Positions 25,882-48,724 of a stretch of 64,000 bases of DNA are shown piece by piece. Below the pieces are notes generated by a model. The model was not told the origin of the DNA. It saw nothing but the letters and a program-made list of their open reading frames with translations, and ran no database searches. The DNA lies in assembly GCA_014871385.1 (NCBI GenBank), contig CM026426.1:66374716-66438715 (forward strand). Reading direction: 5' to 3'. The stretch comes from Ceratodon purpureus. Lineage: Eukaryota > Streptophyta > Bryopsida > Pseudoditrichales > Ditrichaceae. Position numbers and translations under genes: made by a program. The first letter of the stretch is position 1; each line of letters starts with the position of its first letter.

Positions 25882-27128
25882 ATGAGGATCAAAATCTTTA
25901 GCCAAAATGTGCAAGGCTTGAACAGCCTCGCCAAAGTTGATTTGGTCAAAATTATTTTCAGATACGCCTTTAAGAATTGGAGATTGTTTGCCTCCAAGAA
26001 CTGAAGTTTAGAGGGACAAAGTTACAAGCCATCAACAATCTGCTTTGGCCGGGGGCCAAGTTCTACGGTTTGGAAGCCCAAATGGCCTACAACAACCATA
26101 ACAAATCTGACGGAGCCGGGAGTCGGGGGATCGGAATGTGGATTGCCCCGACCCTCGGCCACCTCATCCATTCTGAGGGACACTCAACAGGTGGTAATGC
26201 TTAGTGAATCCGGCTTAAGGATGTCCTTGGCAAGGACATTGCCGTTCTAAACATCTACGCCCCGCATACATTGGCCGATTGAAGCGCCCTTTGGATGGAG
26301 TTGCTGGATATACTTCCTCGGGACTGCAGGTGGGTGCTCGCAGGAGACTAAAATTTCATCGAGCGACATGAGGACAAATCCTCTAATCGTGCTTTCAACG
26401 TAACCAAAGTGGAGAAGCGGATTTTCCAAGAGCTTAAGGACGTGCTTCAAGTCACTAACTGCTTCCCAGCTAATAGCCGGCTTAAGTATTCCCGGGACAA
26501 CAAAAGGAAAGACTGCACACGAGTCCTCGCCCGCCTCGACTGGGTATACACACTTACCGGCCTCGGTGGATCAGAGTCAAATGACGACATCAAATTCTCG
26601 GCAATTGCAACTGCTCAAATCACCTACCGGTGCAAAGAAGAGTATGGCTCGATCCGGAAGTCCGCAGGGCGTCAACATATGTTATGAATGCCTTGTATCC
26701 GCGTGAGGAGGCTGACAAGCAAAATTTCAAACAAATTTGGAGCAGCAATGCTCAGCTCGCGTTCTTTGGAAAATTAGAAAGTGTGTCAAATTTTACAAGG
26801 AGTTTTGTATTAAGAGGGCTCAAGCAAACAAGGCCAAAGAGGCCGTACGAAGGAAGAGCCTAGAACTAGCAGTTGCCGCGCTGCGAGAGGACCCTTCCAA
26901 CCCAGCTGTCCAAGCGGCCCTTCTGGAGGCCTCTGACTTCCTAGCTCAAGTGGAGTCACGGAAACTCGATGCCCAACAACTGAGGAGTCGACTCAAGTGG
27001 AAGCAATGCGGAGGTTAGAGAACAAAGGACTTCTTTTGGGCTCACAAGGCACGATCAACAGCTTCCCACATCACCGCCCTCGAGGACCAGCAAGGCACCA
27101 TTTACACCAATCAGTCGGCACTTGGCAA
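25882..27128 (+). pseudogene. L1-type LINE ORF2, endonuclease part, broken
   Basis: ATG at 25882 followed by IFSQNVQGLNSLAKVDLVK, the first strand of an APE endonuclease, then FASKN where a QE(T/L)K motif would be expected. Stops and shifts occur throughout. The clearest late stretch is 26737-27128: EAVRRKSLELAVAALRED, QLRSRLKWKQCG, TKDFFWAHKA and ALEDQQGTIYTNQSAL. That is the typical linker before the reverse transcriptase. It continues at 48728 as KIC, stop, EYYKQLYQAR once the CACTA element and one copy of its target duplication are removed. Confidence 0.7.
27126..27128 (+). repeat. CAA target-site duplication, left copy
   Basis: CAA directly precedes the CACTGG terminus and is repeated at 48725-48727 directly after the other terminus. 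Three bases is the duplication length of CACTA elements. Confidence 0.85.
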
Positions 27129-27153
27129 CACTGGTAGCAAACCAGTCGTTTTT
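27129..27153 (+). repeat. Left terminal inverted repeat of the CACTA-type element
   Basis: Identical over 25 bases to the reverse complement of 48700-48724. It contains an internal palindrome, CTGGT...ACCAG. The adjacent 27154-28056 has no supported gene and is probably the subterminal transposase-binding zone, with a G-run at 27410-27424. Confidence 0.92.
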
Positions 27154-28056
27154 AATTTCGGGAGATCCGGAGAGTGACGCATTTCACTGGGAATGGCGAG
27201 AAACTGAGCACCCGCAGAGTGACTCCGTCGCTGCCGCTGGGGAAATGTCAGTGCCCAATGGGGAAGGCCCGTAGCTCCGTTTTGTTCGTAGAAAGCGAAC
27301 TCGGTGGGTCCATTCGTAAATCTGGGCTTCCCATTTACTCAGCTGCTGCAATCCATGGCAGGGGGTAGTAAAAAGGTGTAGGGTTCGATCGAGGTCCCGT
27401 CAGGGGTGTTACGGGGGGGGGGGTTTGGGGGAACATTAACCAGGATGTAAATAGGATCTTCAACGCTGACAATTATTAACAGGTAGGTAAAATGCTTTGG
27501 GGGGCTTGGTTTGAGGGAAATATTATCCATTTTCAGTACATGGGATTTCGTACATTGGCAACGAGGACTACTGAAAGCAACACGTCAATGCTATTTGGAT
27601 TATACCGAGACTGCAATGGACGCATTCAGTAAGTCTGATTTAGGGTTAGAAGCTGACTGTCTTAGTGTATATCAACGTCTTCATATGTAATGTGCACACA
27701 GTGTTTACCAACAACTTCATAAGCTGTACAGTTTTGGAAATAGCTGTATTCGGTGAAGGACATGTTTGAAGTCAAAAAAACAACCTGTAGATATTGTAGC
27801 TGAAGCTATGTTGATGTCAGAAGCGATTTTTGGCAGACTTTAGGCACAGAAACCAAGGTTTTAGGCCTAATTTATCGACCGCATCTGGACTCTACACTAC
27901 GGTGTGGATCATTTGAAAATTGATTTCCTATAGGTCTAGAGTGAGCAGAAGTCTGTCCATGCCTATCTAAATGCTACTCTGTACAGATGGTCTTCTTTGG
28001 ATTGGAGGAGTATTTCTACGCTGTGATTGCTAAACGTAGCTCAATGTTTCATCCCA

Positions 28057-29845
28057 TTACATAACATTCTCTTCACCTTCGTCAGAATTGTCGTCGTCGC
28101 TCAGTACATCAATATCATCTGCACACGGTAGAACGAGTTAATGAGGTTTTAAGACCGGGTGAACTCCTTTGCAATTAGAAAGCAATCCACGTTAGCATAA
28201 ATCATGAGATAGGGATACAACTCACCTGGGATGTCGAAGTTGCCGAGGACAAATGAACGACCCTCTAAGCTGACGGGTTTGTAATCATAGTCCCATTCGC
28301 TAAGCCTCTCCACCTTCGGTGTTTTCAGTTCCTCGTGTCCTCCAACGACAGCACTCTCATGACATCCTTCTGTGGCTTCTCCTGCGAGAACAATAGGGGA
28401 TAGAGATTTTAAGAAATGCCATACAGATACGACACATAGATGTTAAATGAATGCCGTGAACATTGGGCGACGTTCTTGGAGCAATGGTCCATTGCGGAGG
28501 GATTAAAACAAAATCAGGTATGAAAAACGAGGACCTCAGTTTCGGGCTGTACCTTCTGATTTGGCGATCCAGTTCTTTGGTGAGGTAGTGCCACCTCTTC
28601 CTTCTCCCAGAATTGCTGCAGACACCCAGGGCATGTAGAGTATTTCGTTAGTGAACCACGTGCAGGAATACAAAAAGAACGAGTCATCCAAGGGGAATAC
28701 CAAACAATGGATTTTTTTGTTACTAAACAAATTGCCTGCCAAGGGGCTACTAGCGTCTCGGGAGTTACCGATTGAGATGCCCCCTCCACGGTATGGCGAG
28801 CTTGCTCCAGCATGTGCAGCGTCAGCGATTTCTGAAATTTGGGAGTGACCAGAGCAATTAGTCCTTAAGTTATAACAAGTAACTCGTGTCCAGCAAAATC
28901 AGATGAACAGGCATGAAAGGCAAATTTACAACAAATTAGGGTGTTCCAAAACCAACCGCATGCCAAGGTATTGTTACCGTGTCGGGACTTGCCAAACGAG
29001 GTGCCCACTCCACGGTTTGGCGAGCTTGGTCCAGCATCCGCAACATCCACAACTCCTGAAATTTGGTACAATGTATGTTAAATCTGACCCAGGGCGGTCC
29101 AGTCTCACAAATGGGAGATGAAACAGCAGAGTACATGGGCTGATAATCAAGACATGGAATGTGAAGGTACGTGGTACATAATCTGCATGGAGAGTTTACT
29201 TACCATTCAATTCCCACCACTTCGTGTACATCGGATGCTCTATCAAGGTGCAGAATCTGAGTCCCCATGTCTTCCTCATGTTGAACCTCTCATGAGGCGA
29301 TGGAGAGGGGAACTTCAGATTTAGCTCCCAGTCATCCGTGCACCCTTCAAGGTTTGGCGGTACTCTGTCCTCCACTTCATTCGCTGGCCAGAATGTCGAT
29401 CTCCCGTAGAATTTCTTGAACTCCTGGAACGACCGAAATGGCTTATGGCGTAGCTTCCCGCGGTGACATTGCTTGTTAGCGAATGCTGCCCAATTCACCG
29501 CATACCCCAGCTTCTCCGCCAGAATGCCTCGAGCAAAGCCGATGCCGATGATCTTGATTTTTCCTATGGGACGCTGGTGCGTCTTCTGGAACATGATCTC
29601 GATCCGTCGCTGCATCCTGGGGCTCTCTCCGTGGTAAACGTCCGCGTACTGAAACCCCCCTCCCTTGCGAGGTCCCCAACGGTCTACGCACATGGCATTC
29701 GATACAATGCCCTGCGGGAGATGGTTGGGATCGCTTTTGGGAAATCCAGGGAGGTACCCTTCATTGTTCAATCCCTCTTCTCTGTGGAACCACTCCGTGT
29801 CGCCATCCTCGCCCATCGCGGCGGAACGATTGTGTCGAATAGGAG
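28057..29845 (-). CDS. Unrecognised multi-exon gene inside the CACTA element
   Basis: Six minus-strand exons can be chained, all with GT-AG borders and all in phase 1: 29204-29845, 28978-29055, 28769-28831, 28553-28615, 28226-28381 and 28057-28118 (TAA at 28057-28059). The large exon has ordinary globular sequence, including QRPIGKIKIIGIGFARGIL, FRSFQEFKKFYGRSTFWP and HPMYTKWWELN. The next two small exons are similar in DNA and protein (DAGPSSPNRGVGT versus HAGASSPYRGGGI), a tandem exon duplication. The last exons end with FVLGNFDIPDDIDVLSDDD, an acidic tail. An upstream start was not found; the acceptor at 29845 shows that more exons existed. It may be a third captured host gene or an element-specific gene. 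No function can be given. Confidence 0.5.
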
Positions 29846-30043
29846 CTGCATGGGAAGGAAAGCCGAGGACAACAGGTTAGAACCAGTAGCCGGCGACCAT
29901 ACCCACAAAGACCAAGCATCCGTGGACCTAGAGAATAGTAAGCATGGCAGCCATGGCAACCTCGAACGCAGTTCAATGTCAGAATGACATTGTAAGGTCT
30001 GCAGAATTAGTTGATCTCGGAATGGAAGTCACGATTGAAGACA

Positions 30044-30083
30044 ACGTCGCAGGGAAGAACGGAATTCCACGATTGCAGAGATA
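30044..30083 (+). repeat. 40-bp direct repeat, copy 1
   Basis: Begins ACGTCGCAGG and ends GCAGAGATA. It matches 30821-30860 at 39 of 40 positions, with no similarity outside. Confidence 0.8.
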
Positions 30084-30820
30084 CTGTGTGCAAGAAAATC
30101 AATACTGCAGGACAAGCCACCTCCAGAAATCAAGAGTCGCTTGAAAATTCACAGGCCAAAGGCGCAGAGACATGAATTACACAAAAAAAATCCCTCATCG
30201 AGCCTCTGCAATCAACGAGATTCTACTCAAAACGAACCCAAACAATCTGCCTTTGTTCCGGCGAGTTTTCCGCTGCGATTACTAAACCTCCCTAGTTCTC
30301 TCAGAGCAACAAAAACCCATCACAGGAAAGAAGCAAACGAATTCTGCGATCTATGCTACACGCCATAGGATTCAAAGAACACGTTAAACCTCTACCTAAT
30401 ATCCTCCGTACCATCCTAGCCCTTCTCGATAAAAAAAAACACAAGCTTTGTGTTCAACAAGGAGTTCACAACAAAACCAAATTAAACAAAACGAGAAGAC
30501 CTGCATGCTCCCAAAAAGGGAAACTGCAACAGCAGCTCGGTTTGCAGAAACGCTCTAGCAACCACAGCAGCGGAAATCACACAAGCTGCACTCCTAGTTC
30601 GCTTCTAATTTGGAGGGGGATAGAAACAAGAGGTACGACCATGCCAATCAGGGCTAATTGCGCCTGGTGCAACTCACTAAACGCAGAAACTATACCTTCA
30701 TCAAAAGCAGGACCATAAACTCCCAAACCAAAACTCAATCCAAACTAAGACCGAACAGATGAGTCTAGCAAGAGAAGATGATTCAAGCTCCGACCAGGTA
30801 ACCAGAGAGAGGCTCCATGG

Positions 30821-30860
30821 ACGTCGCAGGAAAGAACGGAATTCCACGATTGCAGAGATA
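30821..30860 (+). repeat. 40-bp direct repeat, copy 2
   Basis: The single mismatch to 30044-30083 is A for G at the eleventh base. The copies are 777 bp apart. Confidence 0.8.
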
Positions 30861-31530
30861 AGGCGGAGGAACATACCCATGACGGAGGCAGAGCAATCGA
30901 GACCGAATTCGTGGGAGAACAAGGTAGGCCGAGGTCCGAACAGCGCAAGGAAGTAGTTCACTGCGGTGGAGCTCCTTCAAAACTCCGCGATCAGAGCTAC
31001 CCTCACAAACCGAGGCGGAACAATGTGCAGAATTGATGCGCGTTACCACCTTATAAGTCTTGCAAATGGGGGATACATGTTGATGGAGGCGGTGACTGTG
31101 ATGTCCTGTGATCCATCCCCAGTCCCATGTCTCCAACCACCATCATTCAGCCGACCAAGGAGTGATAAATCCATGAATGCATTTTGATGTGCAGGTCGTA
31201 TGAGATCGGGGGGAAGTGACATGCAGAGGTCCGCTTCGAGTAGGATGGGGCCACGTCAGAGAAGGTGGATTCGGAGGATCCATCGAGTAGACGTTCTGAG
31301 AAGCGGGTATGATTGCGGCTGAAGAATGCGGCCGGCAACCAAATTCCAACTCCACCGGGGGGCGCTAAAAATTACGTGCGTGCCGGGGCCGGCATCAATT
31401 GAGAAATCATTAGATTGATCTAGCTGTCCCGCCTGTCAAAACTGCAGCACCATGCGGTCACATCAGCCCGTTCTATCATGGTTGCATTGTAATGGAGGGG
31501 ATGGAAAAATGTGCGGTCATCGTATCGTAC

Positions 31531-33230
31531 ATCTGGATGGCTACCTTGGAAGGAAGGGCATCCCATTTCAGTTCACTACCTGACCTCTCTTTAAAACGTG
31601 CAATGATATCTTGAATGGAAGCTGAGCAAAGTGTATACTGCTGCTTCAGCCGCAACAATTTTCCTTCGTCAGTAGCATCGCCAGGGTAGAGGACATAACA
31701 AATCTGCACCAATAAACCACGACAATCATGTCACTCTTCTGAAAAGCAGATCCTAGCCATATAGACCCAATTGAAGGGCTTATCTCCACGATGCGCATGG
31801 TCATGGTATCTCTCACATATTCTCGGCAGAAAGATCAACATCGAGAAAATATTATTTACAGAGTAGTGTGGGAATGCGGAACATTAAGTGACAGAGAAAC
31901 CAAGGTGAGAAAACACATACTCTTTCAGCATTAGCATGCGCTTGACCAGCCTTGCTGTAATCACCGGCATTGAAAGCCTCAAGATCAAAGTCCTCAGGTA
32001 ATGCCCTGGTCGACCACAACCGTAAACTAATGCTATTCTTGGTGCGGAAGCCCGGGATCGGTACGTCGTAAGCAAATGCACTCACTGTCTCGCCTCCCAC
32101 CCACTCCTTCTTTCCATCGTAGGAATCAACAACCTTTCCGAAAAACTTAACTGGGTAGGAAATGTCGTTCCTGGGAATCTCCCAAGGATAACCCATCTAT
32201 ATCACAGCAAGCAAAAGTTCAACAAACGAAATTGACGGAGCAGGGCCACTTGCAATGCATATAATCCGCTGGAAAATGAACCTAAACAGTCATCCGTTTT
32301 CCAAATCTAATGCTCGCAGACTAGTACAAATTTCACAAGATATTGTACAATACTGCTAGATAGACTCTCTTTGTCATTGATGAGAGCTGCAAGTTAGCAT
32401 CGACTTGCAATGATTTACTTTCAGTACCACATGGTGTATACCATATAACTTAGACCATTACTTGGTTTGTGACGAAGAGCTTACCTCTAGCCATTTCTCA
32501 CATTGTTCCTTCTGGCCATCCGTCATAATGGTCTGCTGAAATAGACCATACTTGTAGCGCAACCCGTAGCCCCAAGCAAGGTAGTTGAGAGTAGGCAACG
32601 AGTCAAGGAAGCACGACGCTAATCTACCCAAACCACCATTGCCGAGAGCGGCATCCGGCTCCTGCACACATGACCCACGCAGGCAAAAGTAAACAACTCA
32701 GCTCTTGGGTAGTACGGTTGCAAGCTGCATCTATGAGCGAATCTCAAAGACAAAGAGATCAGGTGAACAGAAAATTTTCAGTACCTGCTCAGCGACAGCC
32801 TCCAGATCAAGGCCAAGTTTGTGAAGCGCTTCAGTGTATTCATCCTTCAGCTCAAGGTTGCCAACGGCATTCAGTAGAGCTCTCCCCTGAACAAACCAGA
32901 CATTTCCGGAAGTTGAGAAAATGAGAGAGAAACCAAGTTGGTATTCGTAAAATCAATGGAGGGAGGATTCCAGAGAGAAATTTCTGACCTGGAGAAACTC
33001 CATGGACAGATAATGGATAGTCTTTGCATTCTCCTTGGTGGAATGCTTGTAGGTCTCGTTCCATCTCTGGAGCAACGCGTCTCTCAGGCTTTCAGATGTC
33101 GCCACATATGCTTGCTTCAATTCAAATTTGGTGGAGGGCGAGAACGATGGGGTGTAGACGTCGTGAAACTTAATGTTGCTCGCAATGCCATTGGCGTCAG
33201 TTGAAAGAGGGTTAGCTTCGGGCTTGACAT
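31531..33230 (-). CDS. PHS1-like: Alpha-glucan phosphorylase (plastid type), N-terminal exons only
   Basis: Five minus-strand exons with GT-AG borders: 32989-33230, 32785-32886, 32485-32661, 31921-32196, 31531-31703 (phases 1-0, 0-0, 0-0, 0-0, 0-2). They encode about 323 residues without a stop. Landmarks are [88 protein letters not shown] and [18 protein letters not shown]. These are classic glycosyltransferase-35 blocks and fit the plastid form of the plant enzyme. The enzyme phosphorolyses starch and maltodextrin ends. The fragment covers roughly the first two-fifths. The NDTHP block and the C-terminal half with the pyridoxal-phosphate lysine are absent, so no active enzyme can result from it. 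It sits inside the CACTA element, on the TNP2 strand. Confidence 0.85.
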
Positions 33231-33437
33231 CTGCCAAATTCACAAGTATGGCAATGTGAGTGCAGAGCCAAAACATCTTCCCAAGACCAGGAGGAAACAG
33301 CCTAATCACTTACTTGGTTAACATGTACATTGTCACTATTGCAAGTTATTTGAATCTCTGTTCAAAATCAAACTCTGTAGCAGACACAAATAATTGCTAC
33401 AGAATGTCAGAGCAATCATTGTGGTATGGTCACAAAC

Positions 33438-34332
33438 CTATGGCGGGATCTGTCTCTGCTTTCTCTGCAACCGTTGTTTCTGCAGATTGACACGTCCATT
33501 TTTTTTGTGGTGACTGCTTGAAAGAATCTGAGTCGTCAAAAACGCAATGCCGAATGTAAGCTAAACGTTAATAGCAATGTCGGTAAAATATTCAGTAATT
33601 CTTACCCGTGATCTAAACGAATCATGTCGGGGCTGTTACAAGGGGGGGGGGGGGTTCATGTGTAGACGACACTTCAACCGTATTGGTTGAAGATTATCAA
33701 CTTTCACTCTGCGAAAGAGGAGAAGACTAATTAGAATTGTCAAGGAGAACATTAATACCTCTTTGTATCAACTAATATGAAGTATTTAAATATTAAAGAT
33801 TTTAATTACTGTTGTACAGCTCACAGGCGCTAGCCTCATAGGGGTTTAATCTACAACCGTTTGGTTTCAGAAGCATACCTCTTGTTGTCGTTTTTGGAGG
33901 ACTTTTGATTCTGTGACTCAGATACCTCCAATGCAGAATTCACAACGCTGAAAGATGTCACAAGCCGAATCAGTATCAAGACTATGGCTAGCCTATTATG
34001 ATACTGATCATAACGCAAAAAAATCAAAAGGAAGTGAAAAGGTAGAGGGTTGACCTGTCATTGAGATTCATAGGCGCTTTAGTAAAGCCTACGGTTGAGA
34101 TATTACTAGGAGCTTGATGCAGTAACGAGTTTGGCACAATCGCAGCTTTCTTAGCTATACCACTGCATGGAGTCATCGTTGTCGAACAGTGATTAGCACT
34201 ACAAGTGGAATTGCATATTACATGAAACACAACAAATGGAAAAGAAATCTCGAAGAAGATACCTATTGGTTTTGGCCGAAATTGTATGCTTCTCAGAGTT
34301 CGTCGTTCGGTCCGCAGAATTTTCAGCAAAAT
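33438..34332 (-). CDS. Linking exons between the TRAPPC11 and phosphorylase fragments
   Basis: Five short exons chain with correct GT-AG borders and matching phases: 34263-34332 (1 to 2), 34055-34162 (2 to 2), 33879-33947 (2 to 2), 33668-33708 (2 to 1) and 33438-33527 (1 to 1). The last joins phosphorylase exon 33230 to give AETDPAI then [10 protein letters not shown]. The encoded peptides (for example KKAAIVPNSLLHQAPSN and VVNSALEVSESQNQK) are Ser/Asn/Lys-rich and resemble the poorly conserved transit-peptide region of plastid phosphorylases, so they are probably its own 5' exons. The 33668 donor is the least certain. Some could instead belong to TRAPPC11. Confidence 0.45.
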
Positions 34333-34486
34333 CTACAAAGTCACCAAAAATGGAATACACTGTAAGCTCTCAAAGAAGGTTACACTTCAGGATGAAACAA
34401 CATTTGAAACGGACTAAGAAAACAAAATGAGAACTGGCATGAAGAATTGACTTGCCTGCATAAAATATTAAAGTAAACGAACATAC

Positions 34487-34686
34487 CATGAGTGAGCTTA
34501 ACAATTTCCGCTTGAATAGAGCTCCGGTCTTCATTAGATATGGGGCTCGGATCTAAAGACAAAAGCTTGATGCAAGAGGAGAGGTAGCAACGCCCAGTCT
34601 GATAATCTCTTTTGGCATTCAGAAATTCGAGGAAGAACTTGAACTAATAACGCATGCCACCCTTCACTCCCATAAAGAGCACAAAC
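34487..34686 (-). pseudogene. TRAPPC11-like: TRAPPC11 exon fragment with a 1-nt frameshift
   Basis: A 200-bp exon between an acceptor ending at 34687 and a donor GTATGT at 34486. The first frame reads VCALYGSEGWHALLVQVL then ECQKRLSDW, matching the plant TRAPPC11 helix that contains LYxxEGWxxLLxxVLxxLRECxRKL. After SDW the homology continues one base later as RCYLSSCIKLLSLDPSP and NEDRSSIQAEIVKL, matching the following family residues without a gap. An extra G at about 34593-34595 therefore breaks the frame. TRAPPC11 is a membrane-trafficking complex subunit. Only about 66 codons of a protein of more than 1000 residues are present, so this is a captured fragment. The family match is from memory and should be confirmed. 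Confidence 0.6.
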
Positions 34687-35028
34687 CTGTTCAATAGAGT
34701 AGTGAAGGTTGAACTCCATGGTCAACCCAACCATGACAAAAATACAATATCCAATAAGGTAACTTCACGGGGAAGAACAAGTATAAACATAATGACGGCG
34801 TGACCAAACAGAATTGTAACCATCGGTGAGGAATAGAAACATCAAGAACGAACCCCCGACATCACAGGGCATGGGAATCCCGTTCAAAGCTGTTATTATG
34901 CGCTACCGAATGGCCGTGTCCTGGTACAGTTGAACTAAACCTTCTCATAAAGCTTGGCAGCAGGTACTGAATGCCGACAGATTTTTCCTCAGATTGGAAC
35001 AGAGTTTGATCTCGAGGACACCCAGAGT

Positions 35029-38000
35029 CTACATGTCGTCCATTAGCGGAGCTTCGTCCTCATCTGCTTGAGTCTCTTGGTTGTCCTCGTCACCACCTGC
35101 ATCCTCGGCCTCGTTGTCTGTTGGCATTTCTTCGTCGTCATACGCAGTCTCTTCGTCTGGTTCTTCATAGGCCATGACGTGTTCAACGTCCACTTCCAAA
35201 ACCGGCACACCTGGAGGTGGTCCATTTGCAATCACTGCCTCATCCGGGAGTCTAGCATTGTGAGAACTGACAGGGTGGCCTGGCGCGCTAAGTACCTCAT
35301 CGTCTCGTTCTGCTGTCACTCTACGTGCTCTCGGCTCTATGTGTCGAACAATCTTCCAGTCGGGGTCGTTCGGATCCTCTATAAAGTACACCTGGATCAT
35401 AATTTCCACTTGTCAGTGAACGTCACATCAAGGACGACCATGGAGGCCGGGAAAACAAAAGAAGCTCAAGCAATAGCCAAGTCACATCTGTAGTCTATAA
35501 TGAAGCAATTCGGAATAATGTTCTATGACTCACCTGTTGGGCGTGACTGGGTAGAATTAATGGTTCGATGTTGGTAGGCATTCTGGCGTTGAACTTAACT
35601 GACCAAAAGCCATGTACGTCTTCTCGCATACTCAACATTGGGCCCTCCAAGTCAGGGCGAATCCATGAGCATCTCAGAACGTTGTATTTCAGAGCGCCAT
35701 AATTGACTTTAAGAATGTCGGTTATAATGCCAACGTATTGCAGGGCAGCTTCCACGGGGTTACGATCCGCCCTCGATGAGCGGCATTCTTGTGTGATGAT
35801 GGCCGCTACTCCTGAGTCGTAGGAGACGCTGCTACGTCCTTGTTCAGCATCTGTGCGGAAGTGATACCCGTAGGCGTACATGGAGTTATAGTGCTCGACT
35901 GTTGGGTAAGGGAGTCGTGACATGGACCTCAACTCGTCACTAATTTGCACTCCCTCTCTTTCTCTCTCGCGCACTGTCTCTTCTAGCCACATAGTGAACG
36001 TTGTGAAGCACCGTCCCGGTCTGCCCTCGTGCTGCCTCCGCAACACTTCGTATTCTCTGCGCAAACATTGCTCTCTGTGTTAATATAGAGCTTGACATGA
36101 CATGATCGTAGCCATACTGGTGCTCTTAGGGACCACGTAGTACACACGTACGGCTCATAATGGAGTTTCAGACAGATTTCAAACTCTGGTCACTGCGGCC
36201 AGGCGCTGCTATAGCTCCGTGACACAGAGGACCAATCATTCTACAACGACAACATTGCAGGTGGGGTGGGAACAACACGACTGGTCTAGCTTTCGACAAA
36301 CCTGAATAGATCCTCTGTAAGAAGAGAATGCCGTATGATATAGTCATGAACCGACAACAAATCCACATCCTCCCATATCACTTCCCGTGGCTTGCCCTCG
36401 AACACCTCATTATTGTCTCTTTCGTCTTCCTCTAGGTCCCAGATAACCCTAGCAAGCCCAGGGTACATCCTGAAGTGTTCAGTGACAAACGCGAGAGCTT
36501 CTTCGAACATATACCCCATAGCAATCGAGCCTTCCGGTCTTGCTTTATTTCGCACCAAGCCCTTCAAATGACCGAGGTACCTCTCGCCGCTGTACATCCA
36601 CCTGGCATGTACAGGGCCGCACCAATAGAGCTCCCTCGGCAGGTGTAACACGAGGTGACCCATAGAATTCCAAAATGCTGGAGGAAAGTGGATCTCAAAC
36701 AAGGCCATGGTTTCGGCAACATAGTCCATAAGCGCTGTTAACTTTGACCTCTTGATAACCTTATTGCATATACGCTTGAACAAGTGGCCAAGACGGATCA
36801 TCGCCACACAGGGCCCCATTGGTAACAGACCACGAATAGCCGCTGGCAGCACTTCCTGGATTAAGACGTGCCAGTCGTGAGTTTTCAGGAATTGCAGGTG
36901 TCCTTTCTCCAGGTTGACGAGCTTCTCGAAGTTGGCGCAGTGGTTTGAAGGAGTCTGCGTCGAACGGATGGTGCGGAGGAATTTCTGCTTCTGTGCCGGC
37001 AGGAGCACATACGGTGCATGTGGTTTCAGGTACGTCGACGTAGTGCCCTGGCGCACAAGATGCAATTCCGGCATGACGCCAACTTCTTGCATATCCTTTC
37101 GAACGGCTATGGTGTCGCTCTCCCCTAGTAGAAATCCCACCGCAGTGGCGGCAACGTTTTTCTCGACGTGCATCACGTCCAGTGTGTGCCGAACAGGCAA
37201 CTCCTGCATAGATTCACATAGAAATTCAGAACAATTGGAAAGGCGCGAGTGTGAACACAACATCTGATACACACTGCCTAAGTATGGCGACTACACTTAA
37301 AGTATGAATTACACAAATAATCTACATTTACATGATGCTTGTCCTTGGCAGTGACATAATACACTACTTTCAGAATGCAGCTACACTTTCAAGGTCCAAC
37401 ACAAGTATAGCGAAAATGCATAGCAAGATCATGGTCGGGGTTCATGACAGCCATGAGCTGCAATTGTTAAGGTACAGGAAACTGTACGTACATCATAGCC
37501 CACCCCGTTAACTCACGTTTACCACAGCGAAGACTTGTGCTGACACGGACAACCGCATGCAATATCCGAAAACATACTCTAGAACTACGAAGTGCGACGA
37601 GCAGCAAAAACTTCGAGCGACGTGCCTAAGAGTAAATGGGCAAAATTGATTACAACATCTTCAATGCTTCAAGGAAGTCATCATCTTCGCACAGGTAACC
37701 CAGAAAACAGTTGTTACTAATTCGAGGAGCGGAATGGAATCTTACCCAAGTATCTGAGCTGGATACAAACCGTTTAACAGTCATTGCCGCTACTCCACGT
37801 AAAGACCACATCTGTGGGCACCAGGTGCTCTCCCTTGCTAATCTTACGTGTCTTTTTAAATTTATCCTAATAACATTGAGAACATTCAACAAACTAAATT
37901 AAATCTCAGTTCTCGGACCAGCGATCGCAGCATTTTGCGAATTGTTTGCACTCAAAGCAGAATTGAGAACTGACAATGAATATATACCCTACATCTCTTT

Positions 38001-40341
38001 ACTGTCTAAGTGCTTTTACATGGACCCGGACTGCCGCCCTCTTGACCATCTTAATCAGAGGGCACGCATTGAAGTGGAAACCTGAATTACGCCCCGGAGC
38101 AGGACTTGGCATGCAAAAATCCGTTAAGATCAGTGTACTTGCTTAGAAGTAAAATACGAAGCTTGGATAATCCCAAAAACTGCTATTTCCAAGGAATGGC
38201 AAAGAGGTTCCTATGGATTCCCTAGTTATCACGTACAAAAAAATACAGTCAAAGGGTCCTGGTTCTAACTCAAAGAAAATACTATCGAAGCAGCTGTCTC
38301 TTCAATGAGTCAGCAGACCTTATATGATACTCACTCCAAATCCAACACGCAAGCACACCTATAAGACCCAAGCACACCGAAGAAGACGCTACAGAACAGT
38401 GTGACCCATTCCATAGACGTTATCGAACAGACTGGGGCTCCATTGTTGCGTAAAATAACGGCTACAATGAGCTCCTCCTGAGGACAATCATCCACTGTAA
38501 CTGCAGCGTACAGACGAACAGATGTAGAAACCCACGGTATATTTTAAATGAACGCACAGTGAAAGTCATACTACTGCAACGATTCAGCAACTCTGGATGC
38601 AGGGGGCAGAGAAACATTGTGTAGATGGGTATAAAATGAACTCCGAAAACGAGGACTAACAGTATCCTCACCTGCCAATACGGGAGTCTGAATAGTCCTG
38701 AGACTCGTTTGATCCCGTGACGACGTACCGGGTCATTTTGGCCGGGCCTCCCCTCTTCGACCAGCCATCGCTCACGTTCGCGCCCCCAGTTCAAAACCTG
38801 TGTACCGGTAGGAGGATCTGGGGCCCTTCCCCTCTCCACGAAGCCAAAACTCTGGGCGTCGAAACGCATCGGGTGATCATCAGATAAAAACTTGCGAGCA
38901 CAGTTGCAATAGATGTTTTTGTGCAGGACTTTAGAGCGCCGTGACCGGAACCCTCCCGCACAGACAGGGCAACCTATGAAGCCCTTGGTCGTACATCCCG
39001 CCATCACTCCGTACGCGGGGAAATCTCCGATGGTCCATATGACCATCGCCTTCATCACGAAGTGGGAGGACTCTCTGTAGCGGGCCGCGTCAAAGCAATA
39101 AATCCCGTAAGTCCAAAGCTCTAGCAACTCATCAAGTAAAGGACCTATGAACTCATCGAAACGGTCCTGGGTCACTGACTTCGGCCCGGGAATAAGCACC
39201 GCCAGCATCATGAAATATTTTTTCGTACACAGCCAAGGCGCCAGGTTATAATTAAGCATCATCACCGCCCATATAGAATAGGTGGACCGCTTGTCTCCAC
39301 TCGGATTGAATCCATCTACTATCATGGCCATTCGGATGTTCCTATCCTCGTGACCAAACTCGGCAGAGTACCTGTCGTTAATCCACTGCCACTGAGCTGA
39401 GTCGGAGACATGCGTCATGACCTCGCCATCATGTTGTTGAAGTGCATGCCACGTTAGAGCGGCTGCTTGGGTAGGACTCCGGTACATCCTCTTGAAGCGC
39501 GGAGTCAGGGGGAAAACTCGATTCACCTTGTGAGGGACCATACTCTTTCCCACCCTCTTCTTCCTCGGGGCACGGCATTCTGGGCAGAATGTCGCCCTCC
39601 TCAACTCACCCCTGAACAATCTGCAATTGTTGGCACACACGTCATAACTCTTGTAGCTATGTCCAAGCTTCCTTAAATATTCCGAGGCTTCCCGATACGA
39701 AGATGGGAGTGAATTAGGTTGCGGTAAAAGACTCGTGCTCAGCAGCCTGAATAATTCATCCATGTACACATTTGAATTGCCATGCACCTTCCCCCCGTTC
39801 AGTATCAGATAAGTGGACGCCATACATGAGTACTCTGAACTTGGAACAACGGGGTCAGAGCCGCCTCTTCTAACGCCGCTATGGAGATATCGGTTTCATC
39901 ATCCGATTCGCCCCAATCGATGTCTTCATCCGATGAACTCCCATCGCTCTCCTCGGCTGGCATATCCGGGGGCGGTGGCTGTCCTGCTTCGCGATTGCCT
40001 GCCTGTGCTCCTAGATCATCTTCTGGCCCTGGCGGTTGCAACACTGGGGATGGATCCCTTGTCGGTGGTTGATCTACTCCGTTAGCAGGGGACATTGGCG
40101 GCAGCACATCCCCATGGTCTGGAGACGCTGGAACGCTACCCCCTCCTCGATTTCGCTCTGCTTCGGCGTCTACCCTGATCCGATCCCCTAACTCAAAAGT
40201 ATCCACCACTATCCCCGTCATGTCCACCCCCGGGTCGAATTGCCCTGGTTCCAACTGTCGCCGACGCTCATAAGCCTGGGCTCCGTAATACCACTGGATA
40301 TGTGCATCCCAGTCATCATCCGAGTCATTTGCATCATACCC
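35029..40341 (-). CDS. TNP2: CACTA transposase TNP2 (En/Spm family), five exons, frameshifted
   Basis: Minus-strand exons: about 39843-40341, 38672-39842, 36302-37203, 35534-36056 and 35029-35391, with GT-AG borders and matching phases. The first is acidic and Pro-rich and ends EEAALTPLF. The second carries YMDELFRLL, SLPSSYREASEYLRKLG, the CANNCRLFRG...FCPECRAPRKK zinc-binding part, and MAMIVDGFNPSG of the tnp2 DDE core. The third has LPVRHTLDVMHVEKNV and the DUF4218 block (MALFEIHFPPAFW, GPVHARWMYSGERYLGHLKG, KARPEGSIAMGY). The fourth and fifth form DUF4216 (YHFRT, DYSG-like, LPSHAQQ then VYFIEDPNDPDWKIV) and an acidic tail. It would cut the element's ends. Between TPLF and SSEYSCMAST one base appears missing near 39842, so this copy may be inactive. 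Its 5' exon was not found. Confidence 0.88.
37204..38671 (-). other. Long intron of TNP2
   Basis: The donor at 38671 (CAG then GTGAGG) and the acceptor at 37204 (CTATGCAG) join PYWQ to ELPVRHTLDVMH in phase 0, exactly as expected from the tnp2 family. A 243-base minus-strand ORF inside (37650-37892) has no tnp2 similarity. Confidence 0.75.
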
Positions 40342-42653
40342 CTGCGGTAAACACATGATACGCCTGATTCAATTAATGACTAATGCAGACTCCACGCAAC
40401 CAGGCTCAAGACCGCGACAATGAAAGGGGCAACGGCTGTTTGGAGATACGCGGTCATTGTAGCTACACTGCTTTATTATCCATTAAGAGTCTACATTCTG
40501 TAGAAGGGTCCCAGACACATCGACTCGAGAATGGAGAGTCAATAGTCACATCGATTTTGGAGCAATGTAAGAGGAAACGAAGGCAACCAATTCCAAGTAT
40601 GCGATGAAGAGAATTGAACCTCAGAACGGCCCATGAAGTATGGGTGTCGCCTGTTCCTCCTAACGCAAGCTCTGTAAGAAGCCAGAGACAAGTCGGACTC
40701 CCGCATATGTATTCGGCAAGGGCATGGCAGCCTCTTCCATCGTCGCCGTTGAGCAAACTCAATCTCTCGGTTGAGCAATTTTGCTTCCCTAGCTTCGATT
40801 CTGCGTTCCGATGGGGCCTGCCTTCTAATACTTTCCGCCATTGCACTTGCAACTCCACGGAAGGAATCCCACGACGATGCCGTATATTACTGCATTTGAC
40901 AAGCCAACCTACTAATACACAGTCAGTCTTAGGTCTGGGCACTCCCGCAAGAATGCCGCAGCAATTGAATAGCACGCAATCCATACCGACTTAGAGGAAC
41001 CGGGAAACCCTAACGTAGGACTGGAGTCTATGCGTTCGACCACGATGTTAGCAAATTCCCGACATAATTTGCCGTCAGAAGAGCATTGTGTCAATGATCG
41101 GATAGGGAGGTCCGACTCTCGGCACATGATCACCTTCAATATTCCGGAAAGAACGAAACCCTATGAACAGCACGTCAAAAGTGCATTGAAGGACTTATCT
41201 TCGGAGTACGCTATACGGTTGGTCAGAATACACTGTTGGTCCGACGGGTCCCTATGATATCCGTGTGCTACCAGACGGTCGGGGAGTCTTCCGGTACCCT
41301 TCACTATGACATTCAACATGATCCAAACCATCTGCAAGCCAGCAGGGGACATCCTACGATCGTGACGAAGACATCCCAAGTAACACTCTCCCGACTTTCC
41401 GACGCCACAGCCATGGCAACCTAGTAGGTGAGTTTCCCCCTAGTTCATCTTCCTACATTACGTGCTCTTCCAATTGACTCCCTAACCGAGGGGGCAATCA
41501 ATCTCATCCTCGTTGGCAGCGTGTGTGAAGATTTCGTGGATATCAGTTTAATGGAGCGAGCAGTTTTATATCGGACGAGCGAACTACGAGAAGATTGCCT
41601 AGAACCCGCCTACGATCACCGCGACAGACACTTGCAGATAACAACATCTGGGGGACAGTGGGGCCGCGATCAAGGACCAGATGCAAGTCTGGGAGAGGAA
41701 GGCAAGCAGACGGGGCGGATTCAAGCACGCACACGCAAATGACATGAATTAGGGTTTAGTATGCATGCCGGAAACAGAGCCTGGACACTCACCTGGTTAG
41801 ATTGGAGACTGGACTGCGAAGACCTTGGTGCGATTCCCGCTTTGCCGAAGGTGCGAACGTTGCATAAACACACCGTGTCAAGCTCGGAAGAGCATCCAAG
41901 GTATGGCTCGTACACCTCCCCCCCCCCACCCCCCTGAGCTCTATGAGGCTGTTTTCATTTTTCCAAACGGTCCAAAATTCTATACCACCCTACATAGTAT
42001 ATTGTCGCTAGCCTGGAGAAAACATCGGGGCATGTGGTCCATGGAAACTGCCATCTCTTACCACATGTCGCAATGAGAGAGTTGAGGTAGCGTCTCCTCA
42101 TTCGCGCTCTGCGCATGACACATCTGATGCCGCGGACACTGGGTACATTCCAAGTCCACATTCCGCAAAGTATGAGCCTCCACTCCGGTAGTGGAGGCAG
42201 GGTACCCGTAGTTCTTGCTGAAGGCGGCGCCTTCGCTTTTTCACACCCATATTTGCACTCTGAGTCATTAATATGCTCCTAGTTTTGTTGCCTTTAGAAG
42301 CAACATCTGAAGCTGTTGTTTGTCCCATGCAGGAGTGAGGTGCCACAACTTGACAACGGTGCGGATGGAGCTCGTAATGGAACATCGGCAGCCTCCACCG
42401 CAGGACCCCTGTTGCTGCTATGCGTACGCACTAGATAACAGCCGCTGCCTCCCACTCCACATCCTAATTTCGAAGACAACAGGAGGAGCATACTCTTCTC
42501 AGGTATGTCCGTCGTTTCGTAAGGCTTGCGAGGTTGTTACTTTCGCATGTGTCTCGGCTGTGTATCCTATCGTGCATAGAGTTCTGTCTTGGACGAATCC
42601 GCCAGTGTGTAGGCTCACCTCGACCGAGTCCTTAGCACCACGTAGTTGCGGAC

Positions 42654-43157
42654 ATGGCGGACCATCCGCGACGAGGTGAACAGGCCTCTCTGGAGCACGC
42701 ACTGGCCAGCACGCAGTCAGAACCTGGGGAGTCTTCCGGTATCCTCCTTCACAGCACAGGCTTGCCGATTCGCGGAGAAGGCGACCACCTCCCAGTCGAT
42801 GCTACTCTACCACGCTCTGAGGAAGCCCCTACGACGTTCCTTGAACCCTTACCGCTTGACATCGTTCTCCACGAAATTTGGCCACTTGTGATGTGGTCGG
42901 AGATTTACCTGGACAACTTCAGGGTGTGCTGGGAGTTGCGCTGGGTTTGCACGGCTTGGACGACGTTCGTAGAGCAGCAGAGGGAGTGGCACCTCGGCTG
43001 GCCTGCATGGATAGCGTTTCGAGACTCACAGAGGGACGACGTGCTTGACTCCTGGGACCTCGCACCAGATGCTGACGATTTCGAAGTAGAAATGGTCGTA
43101 GCTGAGCATGAGGAAGGGGAGGAACCAGTAGCCCCGACATTAGACATGTTTCCCTAG
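42654..43157 (+). CDS. F-box-like protein in the CACTA element
   Basis: 167 codons from ATG at 42654 to TAG. After a polar N-terminus, residues about 66-112 read LEPLPLDIVLHEIWPLV...VCWELRWVCTAWTTFVEQQREW. This follows the F-box pattern (LPxDIxxxIxxxL ... VCxxWxxxxxxxxxW). The C-terminus is acidic (DADDFEVEMVVAEHEEGEE). F-box proteins are SCF ubiquitin-ligase substrate adaptors, but no substrate-binding repeats follow here. It sits in the gap between the divergent TNP2 and TNPA-like genes, so it may be element cargo or a TNPA accessory ORF. The assignment rests on a short motif only. 40342-42653 upstream shows no other gene that I can support. Confidence 0.4.
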   Translation: MADHPRRGEQASLEHALASTQSEPGESSGILLHSTGLPIRGEGDHLPVDATLPRSEEAPTTFLEPLPLDIVLHEIWPLVMWSEIYLDNFRVCWELRWVCTAWTTFVEQQREWHLGWPAWIAFRDSQRDDVLDSWDLAPDADDFEVEMVVAEHEEGEEPVAPTLDMFP

Positions 43158-43696
43158 CTTCCCATTAGAAAACTAGTGACCGTTTGTCAAGGGTGGTCAC
43201 TCACTCTATCCATGCGTTTTGTACGTCTTTCTACTGGTCGTAATAGATAGATCCTCATTTCCGAATGCTGTTGTTTATGTGGAGGAATATCTAGTTTCTC
43301 TTGTATGCCATGACCATTTCTCATTGAATTGCCTTGAATGTGTGGTAGCATGGACGACATTGGGGAATGCAAGGTACCAATAATCCTGCTCTCATGTGAA
43401 TGTGATTCGCCGTCTTGTAGGCCGCAGTTAACTTCATCGCAAACGCAAGTGGTATCTGCACTCCAATCGCAACAGTGGACATGACCTCGAACGGCCAGAA
43501 CCAGGTACGCGACCCTGACGAAATCCATACCCTGTGACCTTGTTAAATTATCCTTCTGTGAATTATAGCATGACAGCAACTGCATTCTCCTAGAAGAAAT
43601 ACGTTTGCCCCTATGAATGTCTATAGACGTATGAAACAGCTCTGGAGAACGACTCCCTCGTAAGCTCCTTTATTAACATTCGCAAGTTCATCACAG

Positions 43697-46600
43697 GGTA
43701 ACGGTAACAATGGCATGCCGATGATGAACCAGTACCAAGAACGGCCCATGTTCGCTTCACCATGGGGGGGCAATATGCTTTTCCCTGGAGCCCCTCCACC
43801 TCCGATGGGGGGAGGTAACCAGATGCAAATGATGTTCCAAGGATACCCTCCACCACAAGTGGCCTCAAAAAGTGTCCCCGGGATGTATCAGCAAACGTCT
43901 AATACCTCCAACGACAGTCAACAATCCGGTGGACATCAAGATGGGGTGATGCATTACAATTCCAACCAGCCGAATATGGTTGGTGCTAATGCAGTATCCG
44001 GGATGCATTACCAGAATTCCCCAACAACCAACAGCATTCAACAACCCTGTGGACCTCAGGAGGGAATGATGCATTACAACTCCAACAGGCCGAACATAGA
44101 CAACGCTAAAACTGTATCCGGAATGCATCCTCAGAACTCACCCACATCCAACAGCGTTCCACTACCCGGTGCCCACGAGGATGGAATGATGCAGTATAAA
44201 TCTAACCAGCCGAACATGGTTTTAACTGGCAACAACATCCCTCAAACCGCTCGCTTCAGCAACGGGGTCTCCAGCGTGTTCTCCTTTGACAGTAGCAGCG
44301 GGCATACGCCGGGGTCGAGCTCGATGGCAGGTGCGCAATCCTCTCTACAAGAGGTGCCATATTTTAACGCGAACGGCGTGCAAATGCCCGTTGGTTCACC
44401 CTTCCACTACCCCGGACAAGCATCGTGGGCACCATGGGCCGACGGAGGATACTTCTCCAGTATGAGCAGCGCAAATCAACGTGCAGTTGGTCCAATGCAG
44501 AGCCCGATGGGGACTCCCCAGTATGGACCTGAACACTTACCAACAAACACGCCGGCTCCTTCTGCCATCGTCCCTTTCCAAGAATCCAAAAAAACCACAC
44601 AGCGGCGCTTGCAGAGGCTGAAAAAGAAGAATTACAGAGACAACACTCGGATATGGCCTGCGCATATCTTGTGCACGGAGAAAGGGGATATCGACAAGAG
44701 CACTCGCATTTTCGTGCACAGACACATAAGGGCGACGGCCAAGCGCTTTTTAGATCTTTCAAAAATCCACTTCAGGGACCATTTGAACGCGGAACTGAAG
44801 GTCGTAGAGGATGACATTATGAGGGATTTCAAATTCAATCCACCATTGCGGAAAGGTTACATAATCTGGTACATCGAAGAAGTTCTGCGAACATCTAGGT
44901 ATCAATGGCGCAAATACTGGGTCGCCACTGGGCGAGGGCAGAAGCACAGGCAGTGCCCGGAGCGTTTCTTCCCGGCGTTGGAGAAATACTGGCGCACGGC
45001 CGAATCTGAGGAGGAGAGCAGAAGGATGACGGAGGCCCGAGCAGGACGCCGGAATGCGAGGGACGAGCGTGAAGATGGGGCCGACGCACAGTCCGACGTC
45101 TCAAACGAGTCATGGGATGTGAGCTACCTAAGTCCTCGAATACCACTCATTTTTATTATACAGTAAACCATCCTTATGTGATTCTCTTATATATCAAACT
45201 CAGCAGTGCACATAGGTGGTCAATTAATTGATGGCGTCGCTGTACTAATCCAGTTAACTGGCTTCTGGAAAATGGCGCAGCCCCTCTTAAAAACAGACGA
45301 CCCACCGGATTACTTGCAATGGGACGACATGGAATCCGGCCTCGAGTCTGAAGATCACGTCGTACGGGAGGATTCCTTCTGTGACGCCGTTCCTCATACG
45401 CAGGTGAGATTAAGTACACGACCGAAGCTCCTGAGATGCTATGTAGGTTATGGCTCTCCCAAATACCAAACAGACCTTCATTCTTTGACATTGCCGAACA
45501 GGCAACAGACCTGGCTTCTTTGACATTGCTTGTGCCGTAAATGCCAACACTGACTCGTGACGGGGATTGGCACGACACAGGTAGGGACATCAAAGACCCC
45601 TCCTGCAGAATCTGATATGGACGTCACGGCTCAGGTAAACCACCTTGAAGTTCAGATTATTTAAAAATCTACCATCACTGGCACAGCTTCATATGCGGAA
45701 GACGACGTTTTCACCCTAAACTATGGACCTCCCCTAATAGGTCCGATGTCCCTGTTGAAGTGCATGCCATGTTCCTAACTCACTCATTTCTATGCAGAGG
45801 GAAGAGGCCAACGGTACTGCAAGCTCTGCGTATGTTGTGAACTCTGCCGACTTCAGGGCCGTGGTAGGGGCCCAGCGATCGCTAACGCTCAACATGTACA
45901 ACCTCAGATCATCCATGGCTCACATGTCCAATTGGCGTGAAAGCGTTGAGACACAGATGGCAAAACAAGCCGACGACATGACAGACGTTAAGCGGAAGCT
46001 CGACCTACTACTGGAGCTCCAGATGAATGGTAGCTCGAGGGGTAAGTCATCCGAACCCAGGGGGGATCTACAAGCCAGGTCCGGGAACTGGGGCGGGCAG
46101 AATGAGACAGTGGTGGCTACGCCCGCCGGCAACAACTCTGAAAACCATCTGGTTGTCCTGAAAACGACCTCTGCATCCGAGATATCAGACGACGTTCGAG
46201 CCCCAGAAGCGGACAACCAAACTACAGGTACTACTTACAACCGCGCAGACCCCCTTACCATAAGGGAGGCAGGTGAAATTCTGTAGCATCCTCAGCCAAT
46301 CTGTGTATATGACTTGGTTTATGAGCCATCTAGGATTGCAATGATATTTTGAAACTAAGCATACGTTTCCAATGCTGACCAGAGGCGACTCCCGGAGGAG
46401 GGGGAATCCTTGCGGTCGTATCCCGAACCATTGTCGTGACAGACCAGAGTCGGTTAGTTGCCGCCATACATCCCTCTCCCGATCAAACTACCTTGGGAAC
46501 GGATGGTGCAAGCGTCACTATCGCACCTTACGTCATGCCCGAAGAAGTGCCGAACAGCAACGGACCTACGGCTTCACAAGCAGCGTTTGGAGCCTACAAC

Positions 46601-47998
46601 GACAATCTGTTCCGTAAACAGCCTTCGGATCCCACGCCTGCAGGTGCCACCCGTCAACACCCTTTAAACTCGTATTTACATCTCAGCGGCCTTCACAGTT
46701 TAGAACAACCACGGTGTATGGACGTGCTCACTCGGTTCTCCGCAGTTGCTAACGGTTGATTCTATGTACAGTCAAGGACAGCGCCCCTTCCCTCACCGAT
46801 AAAGGGAAAAAACGACAGCTCGGACCAGTGAAAGCAATGGCATCAAAATCCGGCGCTGGAACACTAGTGACGGTGCCAGAACCAAGGGAGTCTGAGATCA
46901 CCATCTGTGGCGGGGCCAAAAAGAGACGAGTGACGAAAAAACCGTCAAAGTACATGGACCATGTGCCCCCCAGCGACCTCAAACCGCGATCAGACAAGGT
47001 TATCCATCTCTCTACTTCTCAACTTTTAACGAATCAAATTCTATTATGCGTGACAGCGCCTCTAAACTGAAGCTCCAAACAATCTACTGAACTTCTCCAG
47101 GTATGTCTTTGCTACAGGGACCAATTCCACCTCGGAACTGCGTGTGGATACTCCATCCGGAGCACCCGAACGAGGCCGTTGGCCTTGGATGCAGCGGTCC
47201 TCACTGGCGATCCCAGAAGCGAAAACTAGTCCCCAACGTCAAAGGGATTGAGTGGGAGTTTGGGATGCAGCAGGTGACTGTGGAGCACATCTACCCGCAG
47301 TATGCCTCCACGAAAGTCCTCTTTGCAGATTGCCAGCGAGAGGGAATCGAGACACTATCAGATGCCTTGAACGGCGAATTTGCGGAGGACTCCACTATAC
47401 TATGGCGCAGTACCTACCTCCGGAATGTTGAAGTAAGCAAGGTGAAGTAGGAAGTCTGCCCGAGTCGATTTCTTTGTACAGTGTTCGTTGCATGGGAATG
47501 CACTTGATTTTCTGGACCTCGCGAAGACAGGGGATGGTGGCCGAAGATGACGGGGACAGAAAGATGCTGTCTGATGCATAGAGAGGCAGCAACGTTGGGA
47601 TCACGGCATATGCATGAGAGGCAGTGCAGCGTTTTCGTTTCCCCTTTTATTACAACCCAGCCATGGTCAGGGTGACCTTACGACTTCTGTTTGAAAATAA
47701 AGCAACTGCCTTTCATATGAGACCGTTGTCCGAGTATCATTGTTTCTGCGTAGTGAATGCTTAATGTTTGATGGCTATATAGTATGCAGAAGATAGTTGC
47801 TTGTAACAGATGGTGGACGCATGGCTCGATAATATTCCAGTGCACAGAATGATCCCAGCAGAATTAATGGCGACTCTGAATTGGACGAAGGATGCGGACT
47901 TCAGGCGAGCTTGGACACAGCGGTTTCTAAAAGAGTATTGGCATAACGATTATGGGAATTGTGAATGTTCTTTGTGCGGGACAGAATTGCAGGGCTGA
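43697..47998 (+). CDS. TNPA-like: TNPA-like protein of the CACTA element (multi-exon)
   Basis: The large exon 43697-45118 follows a CACAG acceptor, so an upstream exon with the start is missing from this model. It has a Met/Asn/Pro-rich N-terminus with 40-residue repeats. A conserved basic domain follows (KKTTQRRLQRLKKKNYRDN, FNPPLRKGYIIWYIEEVL, RYQWRKYWVATGRG), like the Ptta/En/Spm plant transposase domain of TNPA-type proteins. Phase-0 exons follow: one ending at 45403, 45581-45634, and one from 45798 with a coiled coil (QMAKQADDMTDVKRKLDLLLEL). Then come 46384-46645, 46771-47000 and 47101-47415, the last resembling the DUF8039 module (CVWILHPEHPNEAVGLG). The final exon 47810-47998 ends with CECSLCGTELQG. 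TNPA proteins bind subterminal repeats. It is divergent from TNP2. Later exon borders are approximate. Confidence 0.65.
43868..44230 (+). repeat. Three imperfect 40-residue repeats in the TNPA-like protein
   Basis: Three consecutive units share the pattern VxGMxxQxSxTxNSxxxxxGxxxGxMxYxSNxPN. Units begin with SVPGMYQQ, AVSGMHYQN and TVSGMHPQN and end with NQPNM, NRPNI and NQPNM. The repeat is about 120 bp at the DNA level. Confidence 0.75.
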
Positions 47999-48699: not shown

Positions 48700-48724
48700 A
48701 AAAACGACTGGTTTGCTACCAGTG
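48700..48724 (-). repeat. Right terminal inverted repeat of the CACTA-type element
   Basis: The reverse complement begins CACTGGTAGCAAACCAGTCG and equals the left end over 25 bases. 47999-48699 inside it has no supported gene and is probably subterminal sequence. Confidence 0.92.

Follow-up and report, generated by a model that had tools for sequence, protein, structure and literature searches.

A CACTA transposon of 21,596 bp that encodes its own transposase was found to carry intron-bearing fragments of unlinked host genes in the moss Ceratodon purpureus, and sister copies of the element held different fragments at the same internal places. The element lies in a stretch of 64,000 nucleotides (the window; C6:66374716-66438715), which was analyzed together with the 362.5-Mb genome (151 contigs, cited by C numbers). 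The chromosome of the window, C6 (110,524,308 bp), is the V sex chromosome according to our reading of the 'VG' tag in the locus name KC19_VG058800; the U and V sex chromosomes are given as larger than 100 Mb each in a 360-Mb genome in the relevant part of PMC8000587. The data are probably explained by a low-copy, transposase-coding CACTA family that copied host DNA into two spare sites (sites A and B), with later captures overwriting earlier ones. An original prediction had placed at 31531-34686 a CACTA element with fused fragments of TRAPPC11 and plastid alpha-glucan phosphorylase (PHS1), and was borne out in part: the phosphorylase exons and introns, the CACTA element and the shared orientation stood, while the TRAPPC11 name and the compatible reading phases did not.

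The element is delimited by 25-bp inverted ends of the CACTG type (CACTGGTAGCAAACCAGTCGTTTTT and its reverse complement). In a genome-wide search for these ends with up to 2 mismatches, 23 end-like sites were listed, eight of them exact, and the exact sites formed four inward-facing pairs when paired by hand from the position and strand of each end match (Table 1). Perfect 3-bp duplications flanked all four copies: CAA in the window, GTG in the copy at 27.2 Mb of C6 (27.2-Mb copy), GAA in the copy at 54.4 Mb of C6 (54.4-Mb copy, 71.7 kb long and mostly unread) and TAT in the copy on C11 (C11 copy). Since the four duplications differ, the copies represent four separate insertions. With CACTG terminal inverted repeats, 3-bp duplications in four of four copies and a tnp2-type transposase, the element has the features of CACTA (En/Spm) transposons. 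Four further open reading frames (ORFs) of the element gave no Pfam match that would indicate a TNPA-like second protein, and as regards subterminal repeats, no exact 10-12-mer recurred three times within the terminal 700 bp at the two ends, the only such 9-mer being a G/C run. Across nine element ORFs, synonymous changes between the window and 27.2-Mb copies numbered 35 and replacement changes 51 (p ~1e-4 against neutrality, computed with 5266 replacement sites where the correct sum is 5366, with negligible effect); the ratio of nonsynonymous to synonymous substitution rates (dN/dS) of single ORFs ranged from 0.16 to 1.05, with one ORF lacking synonymous changes, and the probable N-terminal transposase ORF carried a 1-bp indel and a stop in the 27.2-Mb copy. 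When a 19.8-kb element query was compared with the genome, 35 of 418 candidates were scored, and the resulting counts are lower bounds, since the window and the 27.2-Mb copy were both missing among them.

The cargo of site B, separated from the transposase stop codon by 65 bp, spans 31521-34963 in the window, slightly more than the predicted interval, and derives from three sources where two host genes had been proposed. The first is a PHS1 fragment on the minus strand, inside the Transposase_21-encoding element as predicted. A parental locus was sought and found 47.7 Mb from the window, at C6:18665979-18668061, where exons and introns align collinearly with 31521-33620 (95.3% identity over 2,100 bp). 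The captured DNA starts after the first exon of the donor, ends mid-exon and retains GT-AG borders in all five introns; five phosphorylase exons had been predicted, and the fragment comprises six segments (E0-E5), the last of them cut. Shared sequence at the PHS1 junctions amounted to 0 and approximately 2 bp. The joined E1-E5 peptide matched plant phosphorylases (E=1.4e-141), and the captured frame, which is open in both PHS1-bearing copies (356 codons in the window), scored higher against the solved chloroplastic enzyme than against the cytosolic one (474 vs. 433 bits). The deposited donor product, KC19_VG058800 (1011 amino acids), has an acidic internal insert, which we take to be typical of plastid PHS1, and chloroplastic L-type isozymes are among its relatives that bear a name.

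Instead of captured cargo, the locus might be a region of host genes that transposons had invaded, or a piece of chromosome duplicated as a block. In keeping with this, both PHS1-bearing copies have beside them a 5.6-kb unit (window -342 to 5296), which is 94.9% identical beside the 27.2-Mb copy and has the same order and orientation there. This reading is scarcely credible and is in the main refuted by the target-site duplications: four copies end exactly at the inverted repeats, each with its own 3-bp duplication. Furthermore, the full phosphorylase gene does not continue at this locus, the match stopping inside E5 at 31521, and the distance between the 5.6-kb unit and the element is 95 bp for the 27.2-Mb copy but 21.8 kb for the other.

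The second source accounts for the 'linking exons' of the original prediction, which match C5:18339881-18340529 and 18340858-18341017 (94%); no other genomic source was found beyond the element copies in genome searches whose listed matches are a lower bound, and a 302-amino-acid piece of a C5 ORF had no Pfam match. The third is a host gene in the same orientation as the phosphorylase, as had been proposed, although it is TRAPPC10/Trs130 and not TRAPPC11. The fragment matches C13:13576534-13577007 and C4:1328590-1329063, both at 94%; the sole genome match of the Pfam family TRAPPC10 (PF12584) is at C4:1332433-1332606, 3.4 kb downstream of the C4 locus on the same strand, with none at the C13 locus; and among 33 relatives of the donor exons, many of them unnamed, every telling name was TRAPPC10 or TRAPP II-specific subunit 130. 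TRAPPC11 was sought as the parental gene and rejected: three TRAPPC11-type loci, of which C2 has two and C8 one, gave only 36-39% identity over 28-31 residues and no DNA match with the cargo. The Foie-gras_1 Pfam family also matches the TRAPPC10 donor exons (E=1.3e-8), which may explain the TRAPPC11 name. Weak matches of the TRAPPC10 peptide in the PDB, two to a herpesvirus triplex protein (E=0.0016 and 0.0024) and one to cyclophilin 40 (E=0.13), were treated as chance. The C13 and C4 TRAPPC10 loci were 98.5% identical over 3.3 kb, and the TRAPPC11-type loci at C8:5665037 and C2:12400558 had identical profile scores, the two pairs being either recent duplications or a matter of assembly.

Further copies with the same cargo were also sought, and the 27.2-Mb copy was found to hold all three site B fragments at 98-99.5% identity to the window, minus 84 bp. 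In the C11 copy, the match to the window begins at 34275 and continues to the right, and on the left there is a protein phosphatase 2C (PP2C) fragment, which corresponds to C9:14582116-14583591 in one collinear match at 97%, introns included (E=5.3e-17 for the joined peptide). At least two in-frame stops were read by eye in this fragment. In the 54.4-Mb copy, position 34300 is followed, with almost nothing between, by 708 bp of C5 DNA, whose source lies to the left of the C5 piece of the window. Next come 250 bp of TRAPPC10 DNA that in the donors adjoins the captured TRAPPC10 piece, and 237 bp from elsewhere (C13:910665 as the best match, 72%), before the left arm is reached at 31519. As the C5 DNA is flanked there by two adjoining TRAPPC10 pieces, it was inserted into a TRAPPC10 exon. 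Beside its left arm, the C11 copy retains a 34-bp exact match to the cargo edge of the 54.4-Mb copy, of which 30 bp belong to the cargo and 4 bp to the arm. The internal deletions of the C5 piece in the 54.4-Mb copy differ from those in the others, hence none of the copies read is the intact ancestor. Identity to the donors rises along the proposed order of capture (TRAPPC10 94%, C5 94%, PHS1 95.3%, PP2C 97%), and the fragments follow the transposase orientation in four of four cases (PHS1, TRAPPC10, PP2C, and C5 as judged by its longest ORFs), which at n=4 is weak evidence for an orientation bias.

At site A, the stretch 30092-30822 matches C12:4505166-4505894 at 96%, with parts also at 11.665 Mb (95%) and 11.684 Mb (87%) of C6. 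The 54.4-Mb copy lacks this insert and the C11 copy has the portion from 30117 on, while the 27.2-Mb copy holds 717 bp matching C11:3276908-3277625 (98%) next to approximately 120 bp of the earlier insert, most of which seems to have been replaced by the later fragment. As 60-80-bp pieces of this 27.2-Mb fragment are scattered genome-wide, a tRNA was looked for in it, and none was found.

A sister CACTA family was also observed, with approximately 67-79% identity over the transposase (35029-40400), at C5:3305339, C13:13194429, C8:9010557, C9:7487275, C6:67042342 and C6:568660. In three of these places the similarity starts at 35029, the transposase stop, and in three others further in, at 35111-35129; in another relative at C6:89.25-89.27 Mb (77%) it reaches 34980; among the matches listed, none extends into the cargo.

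The cargo might alternatively be a functional TRAPPC10-C5-PHS1 chimeric gene under selection, and a regulatory or dominant-negative phosphorylase had indeed been predicted. Compatible with this are the phosphorylase frame kept open in both copies with its five GT-AG introns, the orientation shared with the transposase (probable for C5), and an excess of synonymous changes on the shared stem from the donor to the two copies (approximately 12 vs. 7 replacement changes, obtained by subtracting pairwise counts). Nevertheless, such a gene is highly improbable. Comparison of the PHS1 exons of the window with those of the 27.2-Mb copy gave 4 synonymous and 14 replacement changes (n=18; dN/dS 0.99), and the exons diverged more than the introns (1.7 vs. 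1.2%). Residues identical in the donor and nine aligned relatives were changed in each copy: the window has P304L, T322M and N489Y, and the 27.2-Mb copy has D279I, R445L, K447R and V484I. The compatible phases predicted across the fusion are broken by a +1 frameshift in the TRAPPC10 exon of both copies, the 84 bp missing from the 27.2-Mb copy belong to this exon, and in the 54.4-Mb copy the TRAPPC10 frame has a stop. Of 5903 database matches to the captured frame (lengths approximately 0.55-1.75 times that of the query), 120 were listed; their identity reached at most 70%, so none of the listed proteins is the product of the cargo itself. The kept reading frame under selection by which a functional exon-shuffled gene would be recognized was not apparent at the sequence level, and the cargo looks like decaying passenger DNA, not a new gene. 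The counts for the element ORFs (35 and 51) and for the cargo (4 and 14) did not differ significantly (Fisher p 0.18).

Under the proposed copying of host DNA by the CACTA family, fragments would be picked up, introns included, at site A (at approximately 30 kb) and at site B (after the transposase stop), with the donor genes staying in place. In the simplest order for site B, TRAPPC10 would have arrived first and C5 then inside a TRAPPC10 exon; the left part would next have been overwritten, by PHS1 in the lineage that led to the 27.2-Mb copy and that of the window, and by PP2C in the C11 lineage, and the loaded element would then have transposed. The boundaries, the donors, the copies with introns, the separate insertions and the pattern of overwriting are seen in the sequences themselves. 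Given that the donors are in place and that the PHS1, PP2C and TRAPPC10 pieces include introns, DNA was copied, neither excised nor derived from RNA. The sources on several contigs, the constant outer arms and the nested, overwritten cargo argue for templated break repair: most likely, breaks within the element were repaired from a template, at times abortively, and the repair switched templates to genes not linked to it. The cargo would be carried along neutrally, within or adjacent to the 3' portion of the transposase transcript. More speculatively, sites A and B might act as cargo bays that break time after time and take in new pieces of unlinked genes, the machinery being kept and the passengers exchanged, with loaded copies persisting on the non-recombining V chromosome and PHS1 coming perhaps from a U-linked or other diverged allele. 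The re-use of both sites may reflect only that insertions elsewhere kill the element.

Several points weigh against this account of copying and overwriting. Break repair was inferred and not observed; the order of capture rests on four element copies, two of them read only partly; the joined flanks, which would identify an empty insertion site, match only themselves; and the donor of the site A insert is uncertain, because its source was matched at three places. The synonymous excess on the PHS1 stem departs from neutrality (p 1e-4 to 4e-4) and from the tips (p 0.02). Among the residue differences shared by the two copies, three retain the state of other mosses, the present V gene being derived, three were changed in the captured copy, and three more, near the N-terminus, were not polarized by other mosses. 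The copied template was likely a diverged functional relative, perhaps a U-linked allele, which speaks against the present locus as the donor, and the cargo may once have been under selection, before the two copies diverged. Finally, the published Pack-CACTA mechanism, as presented in passages of PMC8903248 and PMC13317346, is the fusion of neighbouring elements, in which two CACTA insertions enclose chromosomal DNA and then move as one. For the moss element this route is unlikely: the matched sources are spread over several contigs (C4 or C13, C5, C6, C9, C11 and C12), the captures are nested with the same outer arms kept, no end pattern with up to 2 mismatches occurs inside the window element besides its two ends, and a separate double insertion would be required for each donor, adding steps.

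That CACTA elements capture host DNA is known; what is unusual is that a transposase-coding family, and one in a moss, exchanges its cargo at fixed sites. Such exchange among transposase-coding copies is not described in the pertinent passages of PMC8903248, PMC1947982 and PMC2613891, and among the open-licence papers listed, judged by titles and the first lines of abstracts, none reported such a case in a moss. The predicted capture by a transposase-encoding CACTA element was upheld by the inverted ends, the duplications, the intron-bearing donors elsewhere and the four insertions. The 'Pack-type' label fails in the strict sense, as Pack-TYPE elements are defined as non-autonomous (PMC8903248) and the element encodes Transposase_21; with respect to Pack-CACTA elements, it shares the captured host DNA between its ends (PHS1, C5 locus and TRAPPC10) but apparently not the non-autonomy. 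Likenesses to the Pack-CACTA and Pack-TYPE elements in passages of PMC8903248 are the host coding DNA between CACTA ends, the internal position of the newest DNA and the stepwise gain within a family; the maize Pack-PIF cluster 18 gained 163 bp and then 58 bp. In the examples of that source, however, cargo was added and the mechanism proposed is the fusion of neighbouring insertions, whereas in the moss family cargo was also overwritten and the fragments are larger.

The soybean CACTA element Tgm-Express1 similarly carries several unrelated host gene fragments with exons, introns and usable splice sites, but it is 5.7 kb long with five fragments (PMC1947982) and is grouped with non-autonomous elements (PMC2613891), while the moss element encodes Transposase_21 and its sister copies differ in cargo at the same place. 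Chimeric transcripts have been demonstrated for Tgm-Express1 (PMC1947982), whereas the moss cargo was read from DNA. Tgmt*, a putative autonomous soybean CACTA element of 20.5 kb, resembles the moss element in size, tnp2-type transposase and CACTA structure (PMC2613891). Comparable cargo is not described in the passages of PMC2613891 on this element; 'captured' and 'host gene' are absent from its main text, and 'gene fragment' appears three times, one passage concerning Tgm-Express1. In a passage of a 2026 review, the pick-up of unlinked gene pieces by DNA transposons was left to 'an alternative, yet undiscovered mechanism' (PMC13317346). The four complete insertions, the matched donors and the different cargo at shared borders make the order, direction and junctions of capture readable and a repair model testable, providing a worked case of such capture in a moss, although the cargo itself is ordinary.

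Table 1. Features of the CACTA element and its cargo (window coordinates unless a contig is given).
Feature	Position	Strand	Remarks
Element copies with exact ends	window; C6:27190926-27212305; C6:54399052-54470737; C11:3527385-3546772		
Whole CACTA element	27129..48724	(-), transposase strand	inverted ends, second copy, four exact end pairs in the genome
Left target-site duplication	27126..27128		CAA
Right target-site duplication	48725..48727		CAA
Left terminal inverted repeat	27129..27153	(+)	CACTG type
Right terminal inverted repeat	48700..48724	(-)	
Element ORF, 206 amino acids	29196..29816	(-)	without Pfam match; dN/dS 0.16 between two copies
Left 40-bp repeat at site A	30044..30083	(+)	
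Site A insert, 737 bp	30084..30820		between 40-bp direct repeats
Right 40-bp repeat at site A	30821..30860	(+)	39/40 identical
Site B cargo 1: PHS1 fragment, E0-E5 and five introns	31521..33620	(-)	donor C6:18665979-18668061
PHS1 exons	E0 33438-33527, E1 32989-33230, E2 32785-32886, E3 32485-32661, E4 31921-32196, E5 31521-31703	(-)	
Site B cargo 2: C5-locus fragment	33656..34461	(-), probable, from longest donor ORFs	94%, 330-bp internal deletion
Site B cargo 3: TRAPPC10/Trs130, parts of two exons and intron (putative borders)	34485..34963	(-)	94% to C13 and C4
Last transposase coding stretch	35029..35409	(-)	probable, assigned by position; stop at 35029
DUF4216, transposase region	35495..36064	(-)	E=6e-4, under the curated cut-off
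DUF4218, transposase region	36286..37272	(-)	E=6.8e-29
Transposase_21 (tnp2 family)	38462..39823	(-)	E=4e-55
Probable N-terminal transposase part	39805..40356	(-)	without Pfam match
Three element ORFs	42654-43157, 43715-45166, 45792-46286	(+)	without Pfam match

When the window was scanned for Rfam families and tRNAs, no match was obtained. Outside the element, a SWIM-like cysteine-histidine motif was noted by eye in the 5.6-kb unit (window -342 to 5296). An ORF of 2280 amino acids from a non-long terminal repeat (non-LTR) retrotransposon, with reverse transcriptase and RNase H, occupies 11876-18718 on the minus strand and contains a PCIF1_WW domain that passes the curated cut-off (E=2.3e-9). 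Peptides of a second, broken element at approximately 6.5-9.7 kb appeared similar to this ORF by eye. A sharply bounded AT-rich block extends over 54001-60000 (GC 0.24-0.33 vs. approximately 0.5 on either side), and a unit resembling a miniature inverted-repeat transposable element, with 40-nt inverted arms that are 85% complementary, is located at 49503-49893.

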